A stretch of 12,156 bases of DNA from Deltaproteobacteria bacterium (lineage in GTDB: Bacteria; Myxococcota; Polyangia; Haliangiales; Haliangiaceae): NCBI GenBank assembly GCA_018262455.1, contig JAGSPR010000186.1, positions 1 to 12,156 on the forward strand. Reading direction: 5' to 3'. Within the stretch, counting starts at the first letter, position 1, and each line of letters begins with the position of its first letter. This document shows, in pieces, positions 691 to 11,763 of this stretch. The position numbers were made by a program, and so were the translations under genes. The notes under the pieces are model-generated. The model saw only the letters and a list, made by a program, of their open reading frames with translations. It did no database searches and was not told where the DNA came from.

Positions 691-2115
691 TCACAGCTCG
701 CCCTTGGCGCGCAGGAAGATCGGCAGCACGACCGCGACGTAGAGCACGCACGCGACGACGATGATCGCGAGATCCTTCCAGGTCAGTCGCACGCTGAACT
801 CTGGACGGTGGTGACGGATGCAGTTCGTCCACGCCCCGATCAGCGCGAAGAAGATCCACAGCACGGGCTTGTACGCGAACGACAGCGTGCCGATCGAGAA
901 CACCGTGGCGGCCATCGACGCGAGCAGCGCCATGCCCCACACCTGCACGACCTCCGCGCCTGGGACCATCGCGAGTGACCGGATGCCGACGATCAACGAC
1001 TTGATCGAGATGTAGATGATGGCGACGAACAGCACCATCCCGGGAAACCCCATCTCGGCAAGCGTGAGGACGAACGAATTATGCGCCGTGAGGTAGTGAT
1101 GCTCGCCAAACTGTCCCGACCCGACGCCGAACAGCGGGTTTGACTCGAACATCTTGAGCCCGGTCGCCCAGGCTTCGTACCGCTGCTGGGTCGACTCGTT
1201 CGCGGATTCGCCGCTGCGTCCGCCGAGCATGAGCAGCGGCAGCGCCAAGGCGGCAGCCGGCGCGAACGCCCACACCCCGTAGCGACGCACGAGGTAGACG
1301 AAGAACACGAGCAACATCGCGACCAGCCCGCCGCGCGACTGCGTCATGAAGATCGCGACCAGGGAGATCGCCAGGCCCGTCACGAGTGCGACCCGCATCA
1401 GCGGATTGCGCTTTCGGCGGACGAAGGCGATCAAGAACGACATCCCTCCGGCCGCGATCACCAGCGCCGCCTCGTTCGGATCGTTGAGGTTGCCTCGGTA
1501 GCGTACCCGGCCGTCCACGGAGTACGTGCCGAACAGGCCGACGTGCTCACAGCGGTAATCGAGGCCGGGTTCGGCTTCGGGGCCGCGGCACCCCGGGATC
1601 CCGAGGTCGGGCGCGTCGGAGTCCGCCAAGTCGCAGGCACGACCATCGGGCATCCCCGTCAACTCGCCCTCTTTCTCCTGCCCGCCCACGCACTGCGGAG
1701 CCGCGAGCCCCTGGTGGAAGCACACGAAGCCGATGAACGTGCAGGTCACCGCCATGATCCCGGCGACGACCTGGAACGTCCGGAACCGCTGGATCCCGTG
1801 CGCGATCGTCCCGTACAGCGCGAACAGGATCGCGAACTCGAGGACCGTGTGGATCAACTGATCGGGGACGAGGACGGCGACGGTGACGATCGCCCAGCCC
1901 ATGAACGCCAGCGCCCATGGGAGGGCCGGGGTCGCGGCCGGATGGGTTCGGCGAAGCCGCACATCGAGCACCCAGCCAATCACGGCGAAGGCCGCGAACA
2001 GGTGGAGGAACGGGACGCGCTGGAGCAGAGGTAGGAACTCCTGCGGTCGCACCAGGATGAACACGATCAACGCGGCAATGCCGGGAATCGCAAACATCCG
2101 CGCGCACCATAGCAT
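691..2115 (-). CDS. O-antigen ligase/polymerase-like (Wzy_C family) polytopic membrane protein
   Basis: A 474-residue polytopic inner-membrane protein. Family hallmarks are the S-R-G-G motif at about residues 260-263 just after a membrane helix, an N-D-P-N-E motif near 211-215 leading into another helix, and the GVGSGQF...TAHNSFVLTLAEMG block (about 330-355) with His345, typical of the large periplasmic loop of WaaL/Wzy-type enzymes. These join or polymerise lipid-linked glycans at the periplasmic face. Roughly ten hydrophobic segments are visible. An unusual cysteine-containing hydrophilic loop (Cys132, 142, 161, 176, 189) lies between helices. I chose ATG at 2115 (GCGAG just upstream); TTG at 2142 would add nine residues and overlap the divergent deacetylase, and ATG 2097 is also possible. 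Ligase and polymerase cannot be told apart by sequence alone. A role in the neighbouring polysaccharide pathway is inferred from context. Confidence 0.85.
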   Translation of the reverse strand: MLWCARMFAIPGIAALIVFILVRPQEFLPLLQRVPFLHLFAAFAVIGWVLDVRLRRTHPAATPALPWALAFMGWAIVTVAVLVPDQLIHTVLEFAILFALYGTIAHGIQRFRTFQVVAGIMAVTCTFIGFVCFHQGLAAPQCVGGQEKEGELTGMPDGRACDLADSDAPDLGIPGCRGPEAEPGLDYRCEHVGLFGTYSVDGRVRYRGNLNDPNEAALVIAAGGMSFLIAFVRRKRNPLMRVALVTGLAISLVAIFMTQSRGGLVAMLLVFFVYLVRRYGVWAFAPAAALALPLLMLGGRSGESANESTQQRYEAWATGLKMFESNPLFGVGSGQFGEHHYLTAHNSFVLTLAEMGFPGMVLFVAIIYISIKSLIVGIRSLAMVPGAEVVQVWGMALLASMAATVFSIGTLSFAYKPVLWIFFALIGAWTNCIRHHRPEFSVRLTWKDLAIIVVACVLYVAVVLPIFLRAKGEL

Positions 2116-2126
2116 CGCTCGCGGGT

Positions 2127-3182
2127 ATGCTTGGGTTTGCAATGCGCGAGCGGGTAGCGGGACTGCTGAATCGAGCCGGCGCGCTCGGAGCCGTGATGCG
2201 GCTGCGCCGGTTCGCGCCGATCCCGACCCTCAGCATCATCACGTTTCACCACATCTGGGATCCCGATCCCGATTACCCGTTCGATCCCGGCACCGTCGAT
2301 GCCACGCCACCGCAGTTCCGGCGCCAGATCGAGACGCTGGCCCGGTACTGCACGCCGATCGGGATCGACGAGCTGATCCAGGCCCTCGATGGTGCGCCGC
2401 TGCCGAAGAACCCGGTGATGGTGACGTTCGATGACGGCTACCAGTCGTGTCTCGAGGTCGCGCTCCCCATCCTGCGCGCCGTCGGCGTGCGCGCCACGTT
2501 CTTCATCTCGACGTCATTCGTCACCGAGCGGCGGCTCTACTGGTGGGAGCGGATCTCGCTCATCCTGCGCGCCGCGAAGGTCCCATCCACCACGATCTCG
2601 TATCCAGCGAAGCTCGCGATCGATCCGCGCGATGGCAAGCTGCTCAGGCAGCTGTTCGTCCTCGTCAAGACGACCCCCTCGCTCGACATCGACCGCTTCC
2701 TCGACGAGCTGGGCGCGGCGCTCGGTGTCGAGTGGAACCGCCAGATCGAGGCGGAGTACGCGAACAGCCTCATCATGAGCTGGGATCACGTGCGCGCCCT
2801 CGCGCGCGCGGGCATGGATGTCGAATCGCACGGCCGGCGCCATCGGGTGCTGGGCACGCTCGACGATGCCCAGCTCGTCGACGAGCTCGCGGGCTCGCGC
2901 TCGGATCTCGAGGCACAGCTCGGGCGCCCGGTCCGGGCCATCGCCTATCCCGTCGGCCGTCGCGTCGCGCACCAGCCCCGGATCCGCGACGCGATCGCTG
3001 CGGCGGGCTACCGGGTTGGGATGTCGAACCGGACCGGCGTCAACGGATTCTGGCCGCTGTCGATGCGCGGGATCATGCCGATCGATCCGTTCGACGTCCG
3101 CCGGCTCGCGACCGATCGCGCCATGAGCGAGGCGATGTTCTTCATGCAGTACGCGGTTCCCATGCTTGGGTACAAGGACTGA
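2127..3182 (+). CDS. Polysaccharide deacetylase (NodB-homology, CE4) family protein
   Basis: A 351-residue protein with the NodB deacetylase signature. TFDDGY at residues 100-105 supplies the expected catalytic base Asp102 and metal ligand Asp103. SHGRRH at 234-239 gives the two metal-binding histidines (His235 and His239, H-x3-H), and YPVG at 274-277 matches motif 3. CE4 enzymes remove N- or O-acetyl groups from amino-sugar polymers using a divalent metal. There is no obvious signal peptide, only a modestly hydrophobic N-terminus, so action on a cytoplasmic or lipid-linked intermediate is possible. About 85 residues (roughly 135-220) separate motifs 1 and 2, longer than in minimal NodB domains. 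ATG 2127 was chosen, but ATG 2142 (five residues shorter) would avoid crowding the divergent ligase-like gene. Its neighbours suggest it modifies the polysaccharide made by this locus; the true substrate is unknown. Confidence 0.88.
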   Translation: MLGFAMRERVAGLLNRAGALGAVMRLRRFAPIPTLSIITFHHIWDPDPDYPFDPGTVDATPPQFRRQIETLARYCTPIGIDELIQALDGAPLPKNPVMVTFDDGYQSCLEVALPILRAVGVRATFFISTSFVTERRLYWWERISLILRAAKVPSTTISYPAKLAIDPRDGKLLRQLFVLVKTTPSLDIDRFLDELGAALGVEWNRQIEAEYANSLIMSWDHVRALARAGMDVESHGRRHRVLGTLDDAQLVDELAGSRSDLEAQLGRPVRAIAYPVGRRVAHQPRIRDAIAAAGYRVGMSNRTGVNGFWPLSMRGIMPIDPFDVRRLATDRAMSEAMFFMQYAVPMLGYKD

Positions 3183-3278: not shown

Positions 3279-3689
3279 ATGCGTGAATACCGTCGCGAAG
3301 GCCCCAGGATCGACGTCGAGGCCCTGTGCTGGGAGCTCGTCGATGGCCATGAAACCAGCGGACTCACGATCGATCTGTCGTCGACCGGGCTCCGGATCGA
3401 GCGGCCCTACATCGGCGGCCCGACGCGCCGCGAGGTCCCGCTCCAGATCGAGGTCCCTGGCATCGACGAGGTGATGTGGGCGCGTGGAGATGCGTGCTCC
3501 GACGTCCTCGTCCCGACCCGCTCGCCTGCGGGAGGTCCGCTGGGGCTGATCCGGCGCACCGGCTACCGGCTCGCGCTCGCCGCGTCTCGCGATCTGCGCC
3601 TGCTCAAGGAGTTCGTGTTCGAGACCCACCGGGCGCGTCACGAGGCGATCCTCGACTTCGCGATCGCGAGCTGCTACGTGCGCGCCTGA
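3279..3689 (+). CDS. PilZ-domain protein, probable c-di-GMP receptor
   Basis: A 136-residue single-domain protein. The N-terminal R-x3-R motif is Arg6-E-G-P-Arg10, and the downstream D-x-S-x2-G motif is Asp32-Leu-Ser34-Ser-Thr-Gly37. These are the two canonical c-di-GMP contact motifs of PilZ domains, at the usual spacing for a compact beta-barrel. The motifs are intact, so nucleotide binding is expected rather than degenerate. The start is ATG 3279 with GGGA at 3265-3268. It follows the deacetylase by 96 bases on the same strand and overlaps the 3' end of the convergent glycosyltransferase by 16 bases. Stand-alone PilZ proteins often control exopolysaccharide production, alginate and cellulose synthesis being known cases. 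Sitting inside a polysaccharide locus makes that a reasonable inference here, but motility or pilus control is equally open. Confidence 0.82.
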   Translation: MREYRREGPRIDVEALCWELVDGHETSGLTIDLSSTGLRIERPYIGGPTRREVPLQIEVPGIDEVMWARGDACSDVLVPTRSPAGGPLGLIRRTGYRLALAASRDLRLLKEFVFETHRARHEAILDFAIASCYVRA

Positions 3690-4777
3690 GCGAACCGGCG
3701 ATACAGCGCGGCGTAGTCGTCGACCATGCGGTCGTGACTGTAACGAGCGAGCGCGACCTCGCGTCCCTTGGCGCCCATCGCGCGTGCGGCCTCGCGATCG
3801 GACTCGAGTCGCGCGAGCGCGGCGCCTAGCGCACGGTCCTCGACCGGCACCAGCAGGCCCGTCACGCCTTCGTCCACGACGCTCGGGAGTCCGCCCACCG
3901 CGGTCGCGACGATCGGCAGCCCGGCAGCCATCGCCTCCGGGACCACGAGCGGCAGGCCCTCCGTCTTCGACGACAACGCGAACACGTCGAACGCGTGGAC
4001 CAGCCGCGGCACGTCCATCCGTCGCCCGGTCATCACGACCCAGCGCGGCTCTGCCAGCGCGGCGACCTCGGACTCGACCTTGGCGCGCGACTCTCCATCC
4101 CCCACGATCACGAGGCGGACGCGAGACGACAGCAGCGGTGCCATCGCGCGAACGAGCAACGACTGATTCTTGTAATCGTCGAGCCGACCGACCGTACCGA
4201 CCACCCAGGCGTCACCAAGCCCGAGCTCGACGCGCGCCTGGGCCCGCGCCTCGGGATCGGGCTTGTAACGATCGAGCCGGATCCCGTTCGGGATCGTGTG
4301 CAGCCGGTCCGCTGGCATGTCGTGCTGCTCGCGGGCTTGCGCGGCCGTGGTGTCCGAGACCGCCACGAAGGCGTGGACCAGCTGAGCCGCCGCACGGCGC
4401 AGCCACCGGTTGGCGCGCCCGCCCGGGTTCTTGCCGTGCTTGGTGTGGATCGCCACCGCACCCACGAGCCGGGCCGCGGGAGCGCCATAGATCAGCGGGA
4501 GCGGGTTGTGGGTGTGGACGATGTCCGCTTCGAGACGCCGCAGCGCTCGCGCGAGCCGGGGCACCAGGGTCGGGTCGATGCCACCCCGCTTCGCGACCCG
4601 GCCGACGTGGATCCCTGCCTCCTCGAACTCGTCCGCCATCGCCCCATCCGGTGCTGGCGCGAGCGAGAGGACGCTCACGCGATGGCCGCGGGCACGCTGG
4701 CCGATGGCGAGATCGAGCGCGACCCGCTCCTGGCCGCCGACCCCGTACGAGGACAAGACGTGGACGATCGACCACAC
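3674..4777 (-). CDS. Glycosyltransferase family 4 (GT-B fold)
   Basis: A 367-residue retaining GT4-type enzyme with a complete GT-B architecture. The N-terminal acceptor domain has GVGGQE (residues 12-17), a GT4 start signature, and HTHNP at 88-92. The C-terminal nucleotide-sugar domain has GRLDDYKNQ (197-205), VGDG (225-228) and the E-x7-E motif Glu273-...-Glu281 followed by AMAAGLPIVAT. These enzymes transfer a sugar from a nucleotide-sugar donor to a lipid-linked or glycan acceptor on the cytoplasmic face of the membrane. The donor cannot be read from sequence, though UDP-HexNAc or UDP-HexNAcA would fit the neighbours. The start was set at GTG 4777 because GGACGAGG lies directly upstream; TTG 4813 would add twelve unconserved residues and come within 17 bases of the divergent gene. 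Its end overlaps the convergent PilZ gene. Confidence 0.9.
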   Translation of the reverse strand: MWSIVHVLSSYGVGGQERVALDLAIGQRARGHRVSVLSLAPAPDGAMADEFEEAGIHVGRVAKRGGIDPTLVPRLARALRRLEADIVHTHNPLPLIYGAPAARLVGAVAIHTKHGKNPGGRANRWLRRAAAQLVHAFVAVSDTTAAQAREQHDMPADRLHTIPNGIRLDRYKPDPEARAQARVELGLGDAWVVGTVGRLDDYKNQSLLVRAMAPLLSSRVRLVIVGDGESRAKVESEVAALAEPRWVVMTGRRMDVPRLVHAFDVFALSSKTEGLPLVVPEAMAAGLPIVATAVGGLPSVVDEGVTGLLVPVEDRALGAALARLESDREAARAMGAKGREVALARYSHDRMVDDYAALYRRFAQART

Positions 4778-4778
4778 G

Positions 4779-4786
4779 CCTCGTCC
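4779..4786 (-). promoter_or_regulatory. Ribosome binding site deciding the glycosyltransferase start
   Basis: On the minus strand these bases read GGACGAGG, ending one base before the GTG at 4777. The GGA part is six bases from the start codon. This favours GTG 4777 over the upstream TTG 4813. Confidence 0.5.
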
Positions 4787-4830
4787 GTACCGTGTGTCGG
4801 CGGAGCTCCGCAAGCTATGCTGCCCCCCAG

Positions 4831-5607
4831 GTGCACGCCCGCCTGTTCGCCCACATCGCTGCCACCCTCGTGGCCGGCGCCCTCGCGTTCGTGTTCGGAC
4901 CGTCGGTGGCCAAGGACCCGTACTTCATCACGGTCCTCTGCACGGCGGGGGCCGCGAACCTGGTGGTCGTGCTCGAACATGTCGTTCGCCGCCGGCGCTC
5001 GGCGCCCGAGCCGCTCCCAGGTCCTGCTGCCGACGATGCGGTGCTCGAGACGATCGGCCTCGGCACCGAGGATGGCGAGCTCAAGGCCGCGTGCGCGCGG
5101 GTGGCCCGGCGCATCCACCAGGAGCACATCCGGGTCGTTGGCTTCGTGCCGTGTGACAACCTCGTCGCGGTCCCGCCGGTGATCATCCAGCTCGGCCTGG
5201 CGCTGTGCGAGCTGACGGGTGCCACGGTGGCGGTGATCGACGCGAACGTGCGCTACCCGGGTCTGGGAGCCCTCAACAGCGGCCAGGCGACCGATAGCGA
5301 TGAGTCGGTGTTCTCGACCCGCTGGCTGCGGGGCTCGCTGGCCCTGCTCTCGCCGCCCCGGCTCGAGCGCGCGGGCGAGGTCGTGCCCCAGCTCGCCCGG
5401 GTCCTGCTCGACGGCTCCGATCTGTTCGCGCACGTGCTCGTGGATCTCACCGGGTTCGAGTTGCTCGGCGAGCACGGTAGCGCTGCCGCCTGCATGGACG
5501 CCGTCGCGCTGGTCGCGCGCGCCCACCAAACACGCGAGCGAGAGCTGATCGAGCTGGCACCGCTGATGCCGCAGGGCCGGTTCCTGGGCATCCTGCTCGT
5601 CGGCTGA
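4831..5607 (+). CDS. Membrane-anchored BY-kinase/CpsD-like P-loop protein lacking Walker A (pseudo-kinase candidate)
   Basis: A 258-residue protein from GTG 4831 (weak upstream signal). Two hydrophobic segments (about 8-23 and 31-52) are followed by an Arg cluster, then a soluble domain. Its pattern tracks the BY-kinase/CpsD/Wzc ATPase fold: a first strand RVVGFVPC (101-108), an amphipathic helix, a Walker A'-like strand VAVIDANVRYPG (133-144; compare the known LLIDxDxRxP pattern), a Walker B-like strand HVLVDLTG (201-208) in place of DTPP, DAVALVAR (223-230) and a last strand LGILLV. At the P-loop position (about 105-118) there is no G-x4-GK-S/T, and the C-terminal tyrosine cluster of BY-kinases is absent. 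Kinase or ATPase activity is therefore unlikely. Such domains normally control polysaccharide chain length or export with Wzz-type partners. Divergent from the glycosyltransferase and 66 bases before the sugar-nucleotide genes. The fold assignment is by pattern only. Confidence 0.6.
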   Translation: MHARLFAHIAATLVAGALAFVFGPSVAKDPYFITVLCTAGAANLVVVLEHVVRRRRSAPEPLPGPAADDAVLETIGLGTEDGELKAACARVARRIHQEHIRVVGFVPCDNLVAVPPVIIQLGLALCELTGATVAVIDANVRYPGLGALNSGQATDSDESVFSTRWLRGSLALLSPPRLERAGEVVPQLARVLLDGSDLFAHVLVDLTGFELLGEHGSAAACMDAVALVARAHQTRERELIELAPLMPQGRFLGILLVG

Positions 5608-5673: not shown

Positions 5674-6990
<1,317 letters not shown>

Positions 6991-7028
6991 GCCCTGCGGA
7001 TGTCGTCACGCCGCTGCCCGAACAACCC

Positions 7029-8066
<1,038 letters not shown>

Positions 8067-8081
8067 TAAGCTCGCGCCCAC

Positions 8082-8321
8082 ATGGCCGACGACGACCTGC
8101 CGAAGCCGGAACCCAAAGAGATCGACGAGAAGCTGGCCCTCCAGCTCAAGCATCTCGCCGAAGACGCGGTCCTCAAGGGTCAGCCCTATGGCGACGAGCG
8201 TTGTGACAACTGCCTGTTCTACCTGAATCCCGACGAGAACCTCTCGTACTGCTGGCACCCCAAGCTGCGCATCCTCGTCGGTGGAAACTGGTGGTGCCAG
8301 TGGTGGGAGAAGACCGAGTAA
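8082..8321 (+). CDS. Small four-cysteine protein resembling a high-potential iron-sulfur protein, no export signal
   Basis: A 79-residue protein starting 15 bases after the epimerase stop. The first ~40 residues are charged and probably helical (KEIDEKLALQLKHLAEDAV). The second half carries Cys41-x2-Cys44-x12-Cys57-x14-Cys72 with aromatic residues around it: CLFY after the second cysteine and GNWWCQWW around the last. The order C-x2-C ... C ... G-(W)-C-x-x-W resembles the [4Fe-4S] ligand pattern of HiPIPs, small electron carriers normally exported through Tat. Here there is no twin-arginine or other signal peptide, so the protein would be cytoplasmic unless exported with a partner. Other four-cysteine metal sites (zinc or rubredoxin-like) cannot be excluded, though the spacing is not rubredoxin-like. 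It lies between the epimerase and a membrane protein on the same strand; no functional link is evident. Confidence 0.72.
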   Translation: MADDDLPKPEPKEIDEKLALQLKHLAEDAVLKGQPYGDERCDNCLFYLNPDENLSYCWHPKLRILVGGNWWCQWWEKTE

Positions 8322-8331
8322 GCGCATGAGC

Positions 8332-8338
8332 GGGAGGA
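8332..8338 (+). promoter_or_regulatory. Strong Shine-Dalgarno before the four-helix membrane protein
   Basis: GGGAGGA sits six bases before ATG 8345. It is the best ribosome binding site in the window, which supports both that start and the reality of an otherwise unrecognised gene. Confidence 0.75.
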
Positions 8339-8344
8339 CACGGC

Positions 8345-9052
8345 ATGAGTGATGACTACGGGGGAGACCGTCCGGAGCCGACCTCCGATCACCGCGTGGT
8401 CGCGGTCGTGCTCGCATTCGCCGCCGCAGCCTGCTTCCTGTTCGCGAGCTTCTCGACCAGGTGGCTCTTCAACTCCCGCACCCCGACCACGCTGAGCGAG
8501 GTCGGGTTCGGACTGCGCTCGAACTACGAGTGCAGCTCGCCGAAGACCTGTCGCGAGCTGTCGAACGGCGAGCTCGTCTCGACGTGGAAGGCGGAGCTCG
8601 CCAAGCTCCAGGTCGCGGCGGCCGAGACTGCCGACAACTTTCGCTCCCCGGAGGAGATGCGCGCCGCCGAGTACGAGCGGCTCGCGGCGATGAAGGGCAT
8701 GGAGGTCTCGAGCGCGTTCGCGCCTTTGGGCTGGATCACGTTCATCTCCTGCCTCGTCGCGGGCCTGTCCCTCGCGATCGCGGGCGCACTCGTGCTCGCG
8801 AAGCGACGCCTGGTGCTGCCGATCATGCCAACGACGACGGCCCTGCTCTCGATCGTCGTCGCGCTCGTCGCGGGGTGCGTGTTCGCGGCGCTCAAGCCGG
8901 GTCCACCCGGCTATGCCGGCGTGAGCGTTGCGTTCTTCGTGTTCGGTGGCGGAGTCGTCGCCGGCCTCGCGAGCTCGCTCATGCTGAACAAGCTCCTGCG
9001 CCCCGAAGATCCGGATCTGCTCTCGGACGCGATGAACCCGGAGCAGTTCTGA
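8345..9052 (+). CDS. Four-helix membrane protein of unknown function, claudin-like layout
   Basis: A 235-residue protein I do not recognise by family. A hydrophilic 17-residue N-terminus is followed by helix 1 (about 18-37), a long loop (38-125), helices 2 (about 128-152), 3 (158-182) and 4 (191-214), and an acidic C-terminus. The long loop has Trp40, a GFGLRSNYE segment, and Cys63-x5-Cys69, positioned for a disulfide if the loop is periplasmic, then a charged, probably helical part (80-120). A long first loop with Trp, Gly-Leu and two cysteines recalls the claudin/PMP22 tetraspan layout of eukaryotes. This is a likeness of arrangement, not evidence of homology. Arg/Lys residues after helix 2 (AKRRL) are consistent with a cytoplasmic 2-3 loop. 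A strong ribosome binding site precedes ATG 8345. The gene lies 23 bases after the four-cysteine gene and 13 before the dehydrogenase, so co-transcription is likely. Confidence 0.78.
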   Translation: MSDDYGGDRPEPTSDHRVVAVVLAFAAAACFLFASFSTRWLFNSRTPTTLSEVGFGLRSNYECSSPKTCRELSNGELVSTWKAELAKLQVAAAETADNFRSPEEMRAAEYERLAAMKGMEVSSAFAPLGWITFISCLVAGLSLAIAGALVLAKRRLVLPIMPTTTALLSIVVALVAGCVFAALKPGPPGYAGVSVAFFVFGGGVVAGLASSLMLNKLLRPEDPDLLSDAMNPEQF

Positions 9053-11286: not shown

Positions 11287-11763
11287 ATGGCGACCGTCGA
11301 GATCACCACAGACAACTTTCAACAGACCATCGAGAAGGGCGGCGTCGTGCTCATCGACTTCTGGGCGGAATGGTGTGGCCCGTGCCGCACGTTCAGCCCG
11401 GTGTTCGAGCAGGCATCGGAGAAGCACGCCGACGTCGTGTTCGGCAAGGTCGACACCGAGGCGCAGCAGGAGCTCGCCGGCGCGGCAAGCATCCAGGCGA
11501 TCCCGACGCTGATGCTGTTCCGCGATGGCGTGCTGCTGTTCCGCGAGTCCGGCGCGCTACCGCCGTCGGCGCTCGAGGAGCTGGTGAGCCAGGCCAAGGC
11601 GCTCGACATGGCCAAGGTCAAAGAAGAGATCGCGTCGCACCAGCACGAGCACCAGCATGGGCCGGGCTGTAGCCACGACCATGCGCACGGTGACCACGCG
11701 CACGGTGACCACGCGCATGGGGACCACCCGCATGTGCATGGCCCGGACTGCGATCACGACTGA
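11287..11763 (+). CDS. Thioredoxin with a histidine-rich C-terminal tail
   Basis: A 158-residue protein. Residues 1-108 form a standard thioredoxin: FWAEWCGPCR with redox pair Cys30/Cys33, the cis-proline in AIPTLMLF (Pro73), and the terminal SGALPPSALEELVSQ helix. It should reduce disulfides in the cytoplasm; there is no signal peptide. After a short linker a 41-residue tail (118-158) holds fifteen histidines and two cysteines (Cys128 in HGPGC, Cys155 in HGPDC) with Asp and Gly, including three DHAHG units and a DHPHV variant. Such His/Asp/Cys tails usually bind Ni, Zn, Cu or Co, as in HypB or SlyD, so metal storage, metal sensing or metal-dependent redox control is a reasonable inference. 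No metal transporter or chaperone gene is adjacent. The start is ATG 11287 with only a weak ribosome binding site. The tail ends at the TGA, in frame throughout, so it is not a frameshift artefact. Confidence 0.93.
   Translation: MATVEITTDNFQQTIEKGGVVLIDFWAEWCGPCRTFSPVFEQASEKHADVVFGKVDTEAQQELAGAASIQAIPTLMLFRDGVLLFRESGALPPSALEELVSQAKALDMAKVKEEIASHQHEHQHGPGCSHDHAHGDHAHGDHAHGDHPHVHGPDCDHD
11677..11736 (+). repeat. Four 15-bp tandem repeats encoding Asp-His-x-His-x
   Basis: Four consecutive units start with GACCAY, at 11677, 11692, 11707 and 11722. The first three encode DHAHG and the last DHPHV. Units 1 and 2 differ by one base. A 15-bp unit keeps the frame, so copy-number change would lengthen or shorten the His tail without disrupting the protein. 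Confidence 0.85.

Follow-up and report, generated by a model that had tools for sequence, protein, structure and literature searches.

A BY-kinase-like protein family lacking the P-loop, probably with a structural role in polysaccharide assembly, in Kofleriaceae and related bacteria

The gene and its product

A 12,156-nucleotide stretch of DNA from a Deltaproteobacteria bacterium (contig JAGSPR010000186.1 of assembly GCA_018262455.1; hereafter the window) carries a gene whose product resembles the ATPase domain of bacterial tyrosine kinases (BY-kinases), with neither the P-loop nor the C-terminal tyrosine (Tyr) tail. We consider this protein to be a probable pseudokinase of polysaccharide assembly. 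The gene and its features are as follows.

4831-5607, plus strand: predicted BY pseudokinase gene, 258 amino acids (aa); a longer start is possible at 4792
4843-4998, plus strand: N-terminal hydrophobic hairpin, about residues 5-56 (model helices H2-22 and H30-56; hydropathy)
5074-5121, plus strand: helix 82-97 with R90 and R93, opposite the RxxR helix of BY-kinases (alignment, model)
5149-5178, plus strand: former P-loop PCDNLVAVPP, residues 107-116, without GK-S/T (sequence, alignment)
5230-5265, plus strand: Walker A'-like AVIDANVRYPGL, residues 134-145, D-x-N-x-R (sequence, alignment)
5431-5460, plus strand: Walker B-like HVLVDLTGFE, residues 201-210, with D205 unchanged in all 13 rows of the family alignment A3
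5581-5604, plus strand: closing strand FLGILLVG, not followed by a Tyr tail (sequence, model)

The open reading frame (ORF) starts with GTG and reads VPCDNLVAVPP, VIDANVRYPG, VLVDLTG and GILLVG, which confirms the observation of the first-pass annotation, made from the letters of the window alone. The exact start is unsure, since an in-frame GTG at 4792 is also possible and would give a protein of 271 aa, equal in length to P0002. The two N-terminal hydrophobic helices named in the annotation are present both in the predicted model and by hydropathy (peaks at residues 5-23 and 30-48). The RxxR motif of BY-kinases has a role in oligomerisation; R90 and R93 at the corresponding place are nearly invariant in close homologues, and R93 alone in distant ones. 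The Walker A' motif reads D-A-N, i.e. the first aspartate (Asp) is retained and the second position is occupied by Asn, so the DxD is incomplete, and in VLVDLTG the Walker B Asp follows a hydrophobic strand.

Of 7998 candidates scored, 897 proteins reached E <= 1e-3. Among the homologues listed, which include the best 120 of the 897, most of those with a name were labelled Kofleriaceae, Deltaproteobacteria or Myxococcales; one Acidimicrobiales and one Acidobacteriota label also occurred. By these labels of its relatives, the window itself probably comes from Kofleriaceae. In each of the 9 pairs compared, third-position differences exceeded those at the first and second positions. Judged by the number of homologues and this third-position excess, 4831-5607 is a real gene. 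All 14 loci in named assemblies that carry the family come from genomes with one strong copy each, the two further matches in these genomes being weak (E 0.44 and 0.72). A decayed copy without function would fit the missing catalytic loop; this explanation was rejected on the number of homologues, the third-position excess and the conservation of the loop (G104, P107 and P115 are invariant in 74 sequences), and we give it almost no credence.

The family is real, conserved and undescribed in the literature searched, and proteins of its kind were already recognised in 2025. No paper on this P-loop-less family was found in open-licence PubMed Central (PMC), beyond a general precedent in the main text of PMC12004946. 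That paper reports EcpK of Myxococcus xanthus to be a BY pseudokinase binding the co-polymerase EpsV, and proposes a scaffold role for it.

Predicted fold and loss of catalytic motifs

Both predicted models are seven-stranded and match the BY-kinase fold, and the structure check proposed in the annotation showed no unrelated fold. The BY-kinase ancestry suggested there is supported by this predicted fold and by homology. Profile A3 of the family aligns without gaps, from strand 1 to Walker A', with a P-loop paralogue in locus L091, e-v-a-v-p-p standing opposite GEGKTT; in this alignment the position of the P-loop lysine (Lys) is occupied in the window protein by V114 and the following two positions by P115 and P116.

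Several results weigh against this assignment. The confidence of the models is middling (mean predicted local distance difference test 79 and 79, predicted template modelling score 0.65 and 0.80), no Pfam family passed its cut-off (one match, at E 0.097, lies below it), no NCBIfam family was reached by the window protein, and a single-sequence search of PDB sequences found no solved BY-kinase. The profile gave a weak result against PDB sequences, where an unrelated protein ranked first (E 0.05) and VpsO came after it (E 0.09). In addition, the first A' Asp is missing as well from one distant member (L052).

As to descent, the tree, which carries a long-branch warning, gave the family no firm place among the BY-kinases. 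An origin from MinD/ParA ATPases was tried and rejected (hhalign to 11 Soj/MinD-like proteins, E 0.11; KGG-type P-loop missing).

The missing P-loop is a property of the whole family as sampled here. In a set of 230 proteins from the top of the homologue lists (window protein included), 228 match the strand-1 pattern, and none of these has GK[ST][ST] at the former P-loop site; the two proteins outside the pattern likewise lack GK-S/T there, and in the 9 of 230 proteins with GK-S/T elsewhere in the chain it never falls at this site. The motifs DAN[VL]RYPGL (205/228) and DLTGF (225/228) are widespread. The last 25 residues are free of Tyr in 216 of the 230 proteins and contain a single one in the other 14.

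A search with the A3 profile over 377 genomes of the phylum scored no more than 8 candidates in each genome, which makes its counts lower bounds. It found members in at least 13 genomes at E 5.1e-55 or better (10 of these 13 members were already rows of A3) and, after a wide gap, matches in at least 63 more at 1e-11 to 1e-5. The 32 rows read split cleanly into 13 members without GK-S/T at the site (one has GKT near the last strands) and 19 others with it, the latter comprising 17 of the 63 further genomes, L053 and one gene of the paralogue group C7 described below. Both losses noticed in the window protein hold across the family, and the orthologues with intact GK-S/T that the annotation proposed to look for were absent from those read (0/228, the two extra proteins and 0/13). 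The hairpin, present in the window protein, does not define the family: by a crude hydropathy count, 128 of the 228 proteins lack hydrophobic segments, 22 have a single one and 78 have two.

As read from the alignments and models, a conserved Pro-containing loop replaces GK-S/T, and the predicted fold, the first A' Asp and the Walker B Asp are kept. The protein should be no kinase, because the P-loop Lys and the Tyr residues to be phosphorylated are missing. The Walker B Asp is invariant in 13/13 diverse members (rows of A3) and the first A' Asp is present in 12/13, which is beyond the need of a pure scaffold and might suggest an atypical ATPase or kinase in which these residues and the Pro-containing loop bind nucleotide in place of a P-loop. 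We regard this as very unlikely, given that V and P stand where Lys and Ser/Thr would be and that the second A' Asp is Asn; to our knowledge, no enzyme of the BY-kinase group binds nucleotide without a P-loop.

Polysaccharide genes around the predicted pseudokinase

The neighbouring genes of the window are listed below.

691-2142, minus strand: Wzy_C (O-antigen ligase/polymerase-like) membrane protein (family scan)
2127-3182, plus strand: polysaccharide deacetylase (family scan)
3279-3689, plus strand: PilZ-like protein (just under the Pfam cut-off)
3674-4813, minus strand: GT4 glycosyltransferase, divergent neighbour (family scan)
5674-6990, plus strand: nucleotide-sugar dehydrogenase (TIGR03026 over cut-off; most like TviB, below that cut-off)
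6987-8066, plus strand: NAD-dependent sugar epimerase (family scan)

The gene is thus flanked by a GT4 glycosyltransferase, a nucleotide-sugar dehydrogenase and an epimerase, in agreement with the polysaccharide setting recognised in the annotation.

Genes of an AAA+ cluster lie near the epimerase in relatives; as candidates for the kinase they were rejected, the two scanned being AAA ATPases. Region 8066-8345 of the window lacks two genes that follow the epimerase on its 3' side in L001 and L006, one belonging to the AAA+ cluster and the other coding for a small partner. In L003 both lie 3' of the dehydrogenase, and L005 and L013 have the AAA+ cluster member; Pfam confirmed the AAA family of the L003 and L005 copies. 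A thioredoxin-looking ORF (WCGPC, by eye) at 11287-11763 of the window has a long His-rich C-terminal tail, possibly metal-binding.

A paralogue with an intact P-loop

The P-loop paralogue C7 (e.g. L095:3452-4063) keeps GK-S/T in 13/13 rows of its alignment A6, has no Tyr tail, and at Walker A' usually has E-x-N or E-x-H in place of DxD. Because DxD is mostly lost and the Tyr tail missing, C7 may bind ATP and yet be no kinase. The two C7 proteins read are below the cut-offs of TIGR03018 (78 and 83 vs 231 bits) and TIGR01007.

Among the 377 genomes, 13 have the pseudokinase family, 14 have C7 above 230 bits and 12 have both (hypergeometric p 8e-20, a value that ignores kinship). The family occurs without C7 in G341, where the contig ends 8.6 kb past the gene, and C7 without the family in G380 and G384. 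Five genomes have both genes on the same contig, where 59 bp separate the matches in G060, 2.6 kb in G346 and G277, and 7.6 and 8.4 kb in G205 and G120, respectively; G277 contains a one-strand run of the pseudokinase, a gene of unknown family, an RsbW-like gene, a STAS-like gene (by clustering), C7 and SpoIIE.

In four loci (L100, L103, L105 and L106) C7 closes a block of genes for an initiating sugar transferase, RsbW-like protein, STAS protein, GT4 glycosyltransferase, second co-polymerase-like protein and co-polymerase, and an exporter-cluster gene is near in 3 of the 4. The co-polymerase of this block resembles the XrtA chain-length determinant and is devoid of a kinase domain; in the C7 loci it has a tail of 27-70 residues past the last membrane segment in 11/11 copies. 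The second co-polymerase-like gene precedes the co-polymerase and C7 in 8 of 9 Kofleriaceae-type loci, the ninth being cut by a contig end, and its similarity to the co-polymerase is weak (E about 3e-8 to 5e-4 for most).

This second gene (cluster 18; L106:6228-7667, with like genes in L098-L103 and L105) lies directly before the co-polymerase. Partner-switching genes (RsbW-like, STAS, SpoIIE) share loci with C7 or the pseudokinase (L091:5753-8666, L106:4511-5307, L095:79-2789).

The paralogue and the co-polymerase, encoded elsewhere in related genomes and invisible in the window, bear on the mechanism, and in this respect the mechanism drawn from the window alone was incomplete. The pseudokinase might co-assemble with the ATP-binding, tail-less C7 into a mixed ring under two co-polymerase chains, in which only some subunits bind ATP. 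The co-occurrence (C7 in 12 of the 13 genomes that have the family, the family in 12 of the 14 that have C7), the five same-contig genomes, including the close spacing in G060 and the run in G277, and the recurring cluster 18 gene make such a ring possible, and we hold it as a tentative alternative. Against it stand the nine Kofleriaceae-type genomes (two so named) with C7 and the pseudokinase on different contigs, because of which a shared pathway is something we infer and which also count against our own proposal below. Further points against the ring are that kinship inflates the co-occurrence, that the score thresholds were chosen after gaps in the score lists had been seen, and that the scoring took in no more than 8 candidates from each genome; moreover, the tree does not put the family beside C7, although a clade of the family with C7 and four BY-kinase rows nested is compatible with the data (approximately unbiased (AU) test, p 0.50), and the main text of PMC12004946 argues that EcpK is independent of active BY-kinases. 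A two-part ring, in which the pseudokinase, in some copies anchored in the membrane, alternates or docks with C7 under the co-polymerase pair and ATP-controlled assembly drives export without tyrosine phosphorylation, appears slightly more doubtful still.

Proposed role

The length control of capsules and exopolysaccharides is commonly attributed to tyrosine phosphorylation cycles. We think it likely that the window protein belongs to a catalytically dead BY-kinase paralogue of Kofleriaceae and fellow members of the phylum, most likely a co-polymerase scaffold that works without tyrosine phosphorylation. This proposal draws on the predicted fold, the homology, the P-loop loss in the members read, the gene context and the co-occurrence with C7. 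Since related genomes usually also have a cousin with the ATP-binding loop, the protein is probably a structural partner rather than an enzyme.

By analogy, the pseudokinase would bind no ATP; it would attach to a polysaccharide co-polymerase (Wzz/PCP-2) at the cytoplasmic end of the latter and scaffold its assembly in a Wzx/Wzy-type pathway, as proposed for EcpK. The docking place may be the 27-70 residue C-terminal tail of the co-polymerase, the region by which EpsV is modelled to dock into EcpK. In copies that have it, the hairpin would serve as a membrane tether, and selection would keep the rest of the core. The simplest reading is that of a docking subunit for a co-polymerase, the ring mixed with C7 being a bolder one.

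The annotation's idea of a pseudo-kinase that regulates or scaffolds polysaccharide assembly is thus partly supported: the ancestry, the loss of the P-loop and Tyr tail and the polysaccharide context favour it, and the hairpin is not family-wide. As for the distinct variant that it envisaged, the concept is already known from the BY pseudokinase scaffolds of co-polymerases in the main text of PMC12004946 (EcpK/EpsV and HfsB/HfsA). A family of this size points to a route on which the structural work would fall to a dead kinase. With C7 present in the same genomes, one can ask by experiment whether the pseudokinase acts on its own, as EcpK is proposed to do, or shares a mixed ring with a partner that binds ATP.

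Comparison with known BY-kinases and pseudokinases

The kinase domains of Wzc, VpsO and CapB have the P-loop, the second A' Asp and the Tyr tail that are missing from the window family. The nearest model of C7 is the XrtA-associated tyrosine autokinase (TIGR03018); its domain is homologous to that of the pseudokinase, with which C7 shares genomes and sometimes a locus, GK-S/T being retained in C7 and lost in the pseudokinase.

The EpsV model NF041864 gave matches of E <= 1e-50 in 7 of the 377 genomes and passed its cut-off in none, so that the search did not extend to EcpK of M. xanthus itself. We use "EcpK-like" as our own label for four genes, on the basis of their location at EpsV-like co-polymerases and of BY-kinase profile matches (E 2e-7, 8e-6, 0.0025 and 0.32). 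Two of these degenerate genes are directly beside the co-polymerase (L150:18235-18831 and L147:18433-18972), and two lie within about 0.6-1.2 kb of it (L145:17791-19056 and L143:17291-18580).

The window gene might simply be the EcpK orthologue of Kofleriaceae, as both are the same sort of degenerate BY-kinase, probably in the same phylum, and a common clade of the family and the EcpK-like proteins is compatible with the data (AU test, p 0.47, which leaves one and two origins undistinguished). This is unlikely in our view, considering that hhalign of the family with the four EcpK-like proteins gave a weak match (E 0.0016, probability 16), that the two groups form separate clades (100/100 each) on long stems, and that EcpK lacks motifs and strands kept in the family, as set out below.

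Caulobacter crescentus belongs to another phylum. Its HfsB, named in the main text of PMC12004946 as another BY pseudokinase case (with HfsA), is, by its description, likewise a stand-alone BY pseudokinase with a co-polymerase. The same main text holds no mention of Haliangium, Kofleriaceae, Sorangium, Polyangium or Nannocystis. EcpK (MXAN_7447), as described there, is like the window family in its BY-kinase fold, in having no Walker A motif and no Tyr tail, in its exopolysaccharide setting and in a pathway co-polymerase without its own kinase domain; no BY-kinase gene adjoins epsV in M. xanthus. The differences are threefold. EcpK lacks Walker A, A' and B as well as strands 4 and 5 of the Wzc domain (section 5 of PMC12004946), whereas the window family keeps the A' and B Asp and seven strands; the described EcpK model has no membrane hairpin, whereas part of the window-family copies have one; and EcpK is argued to work without active BY-kinases, whereas a P-loop paralogue co-occurs with the window family.
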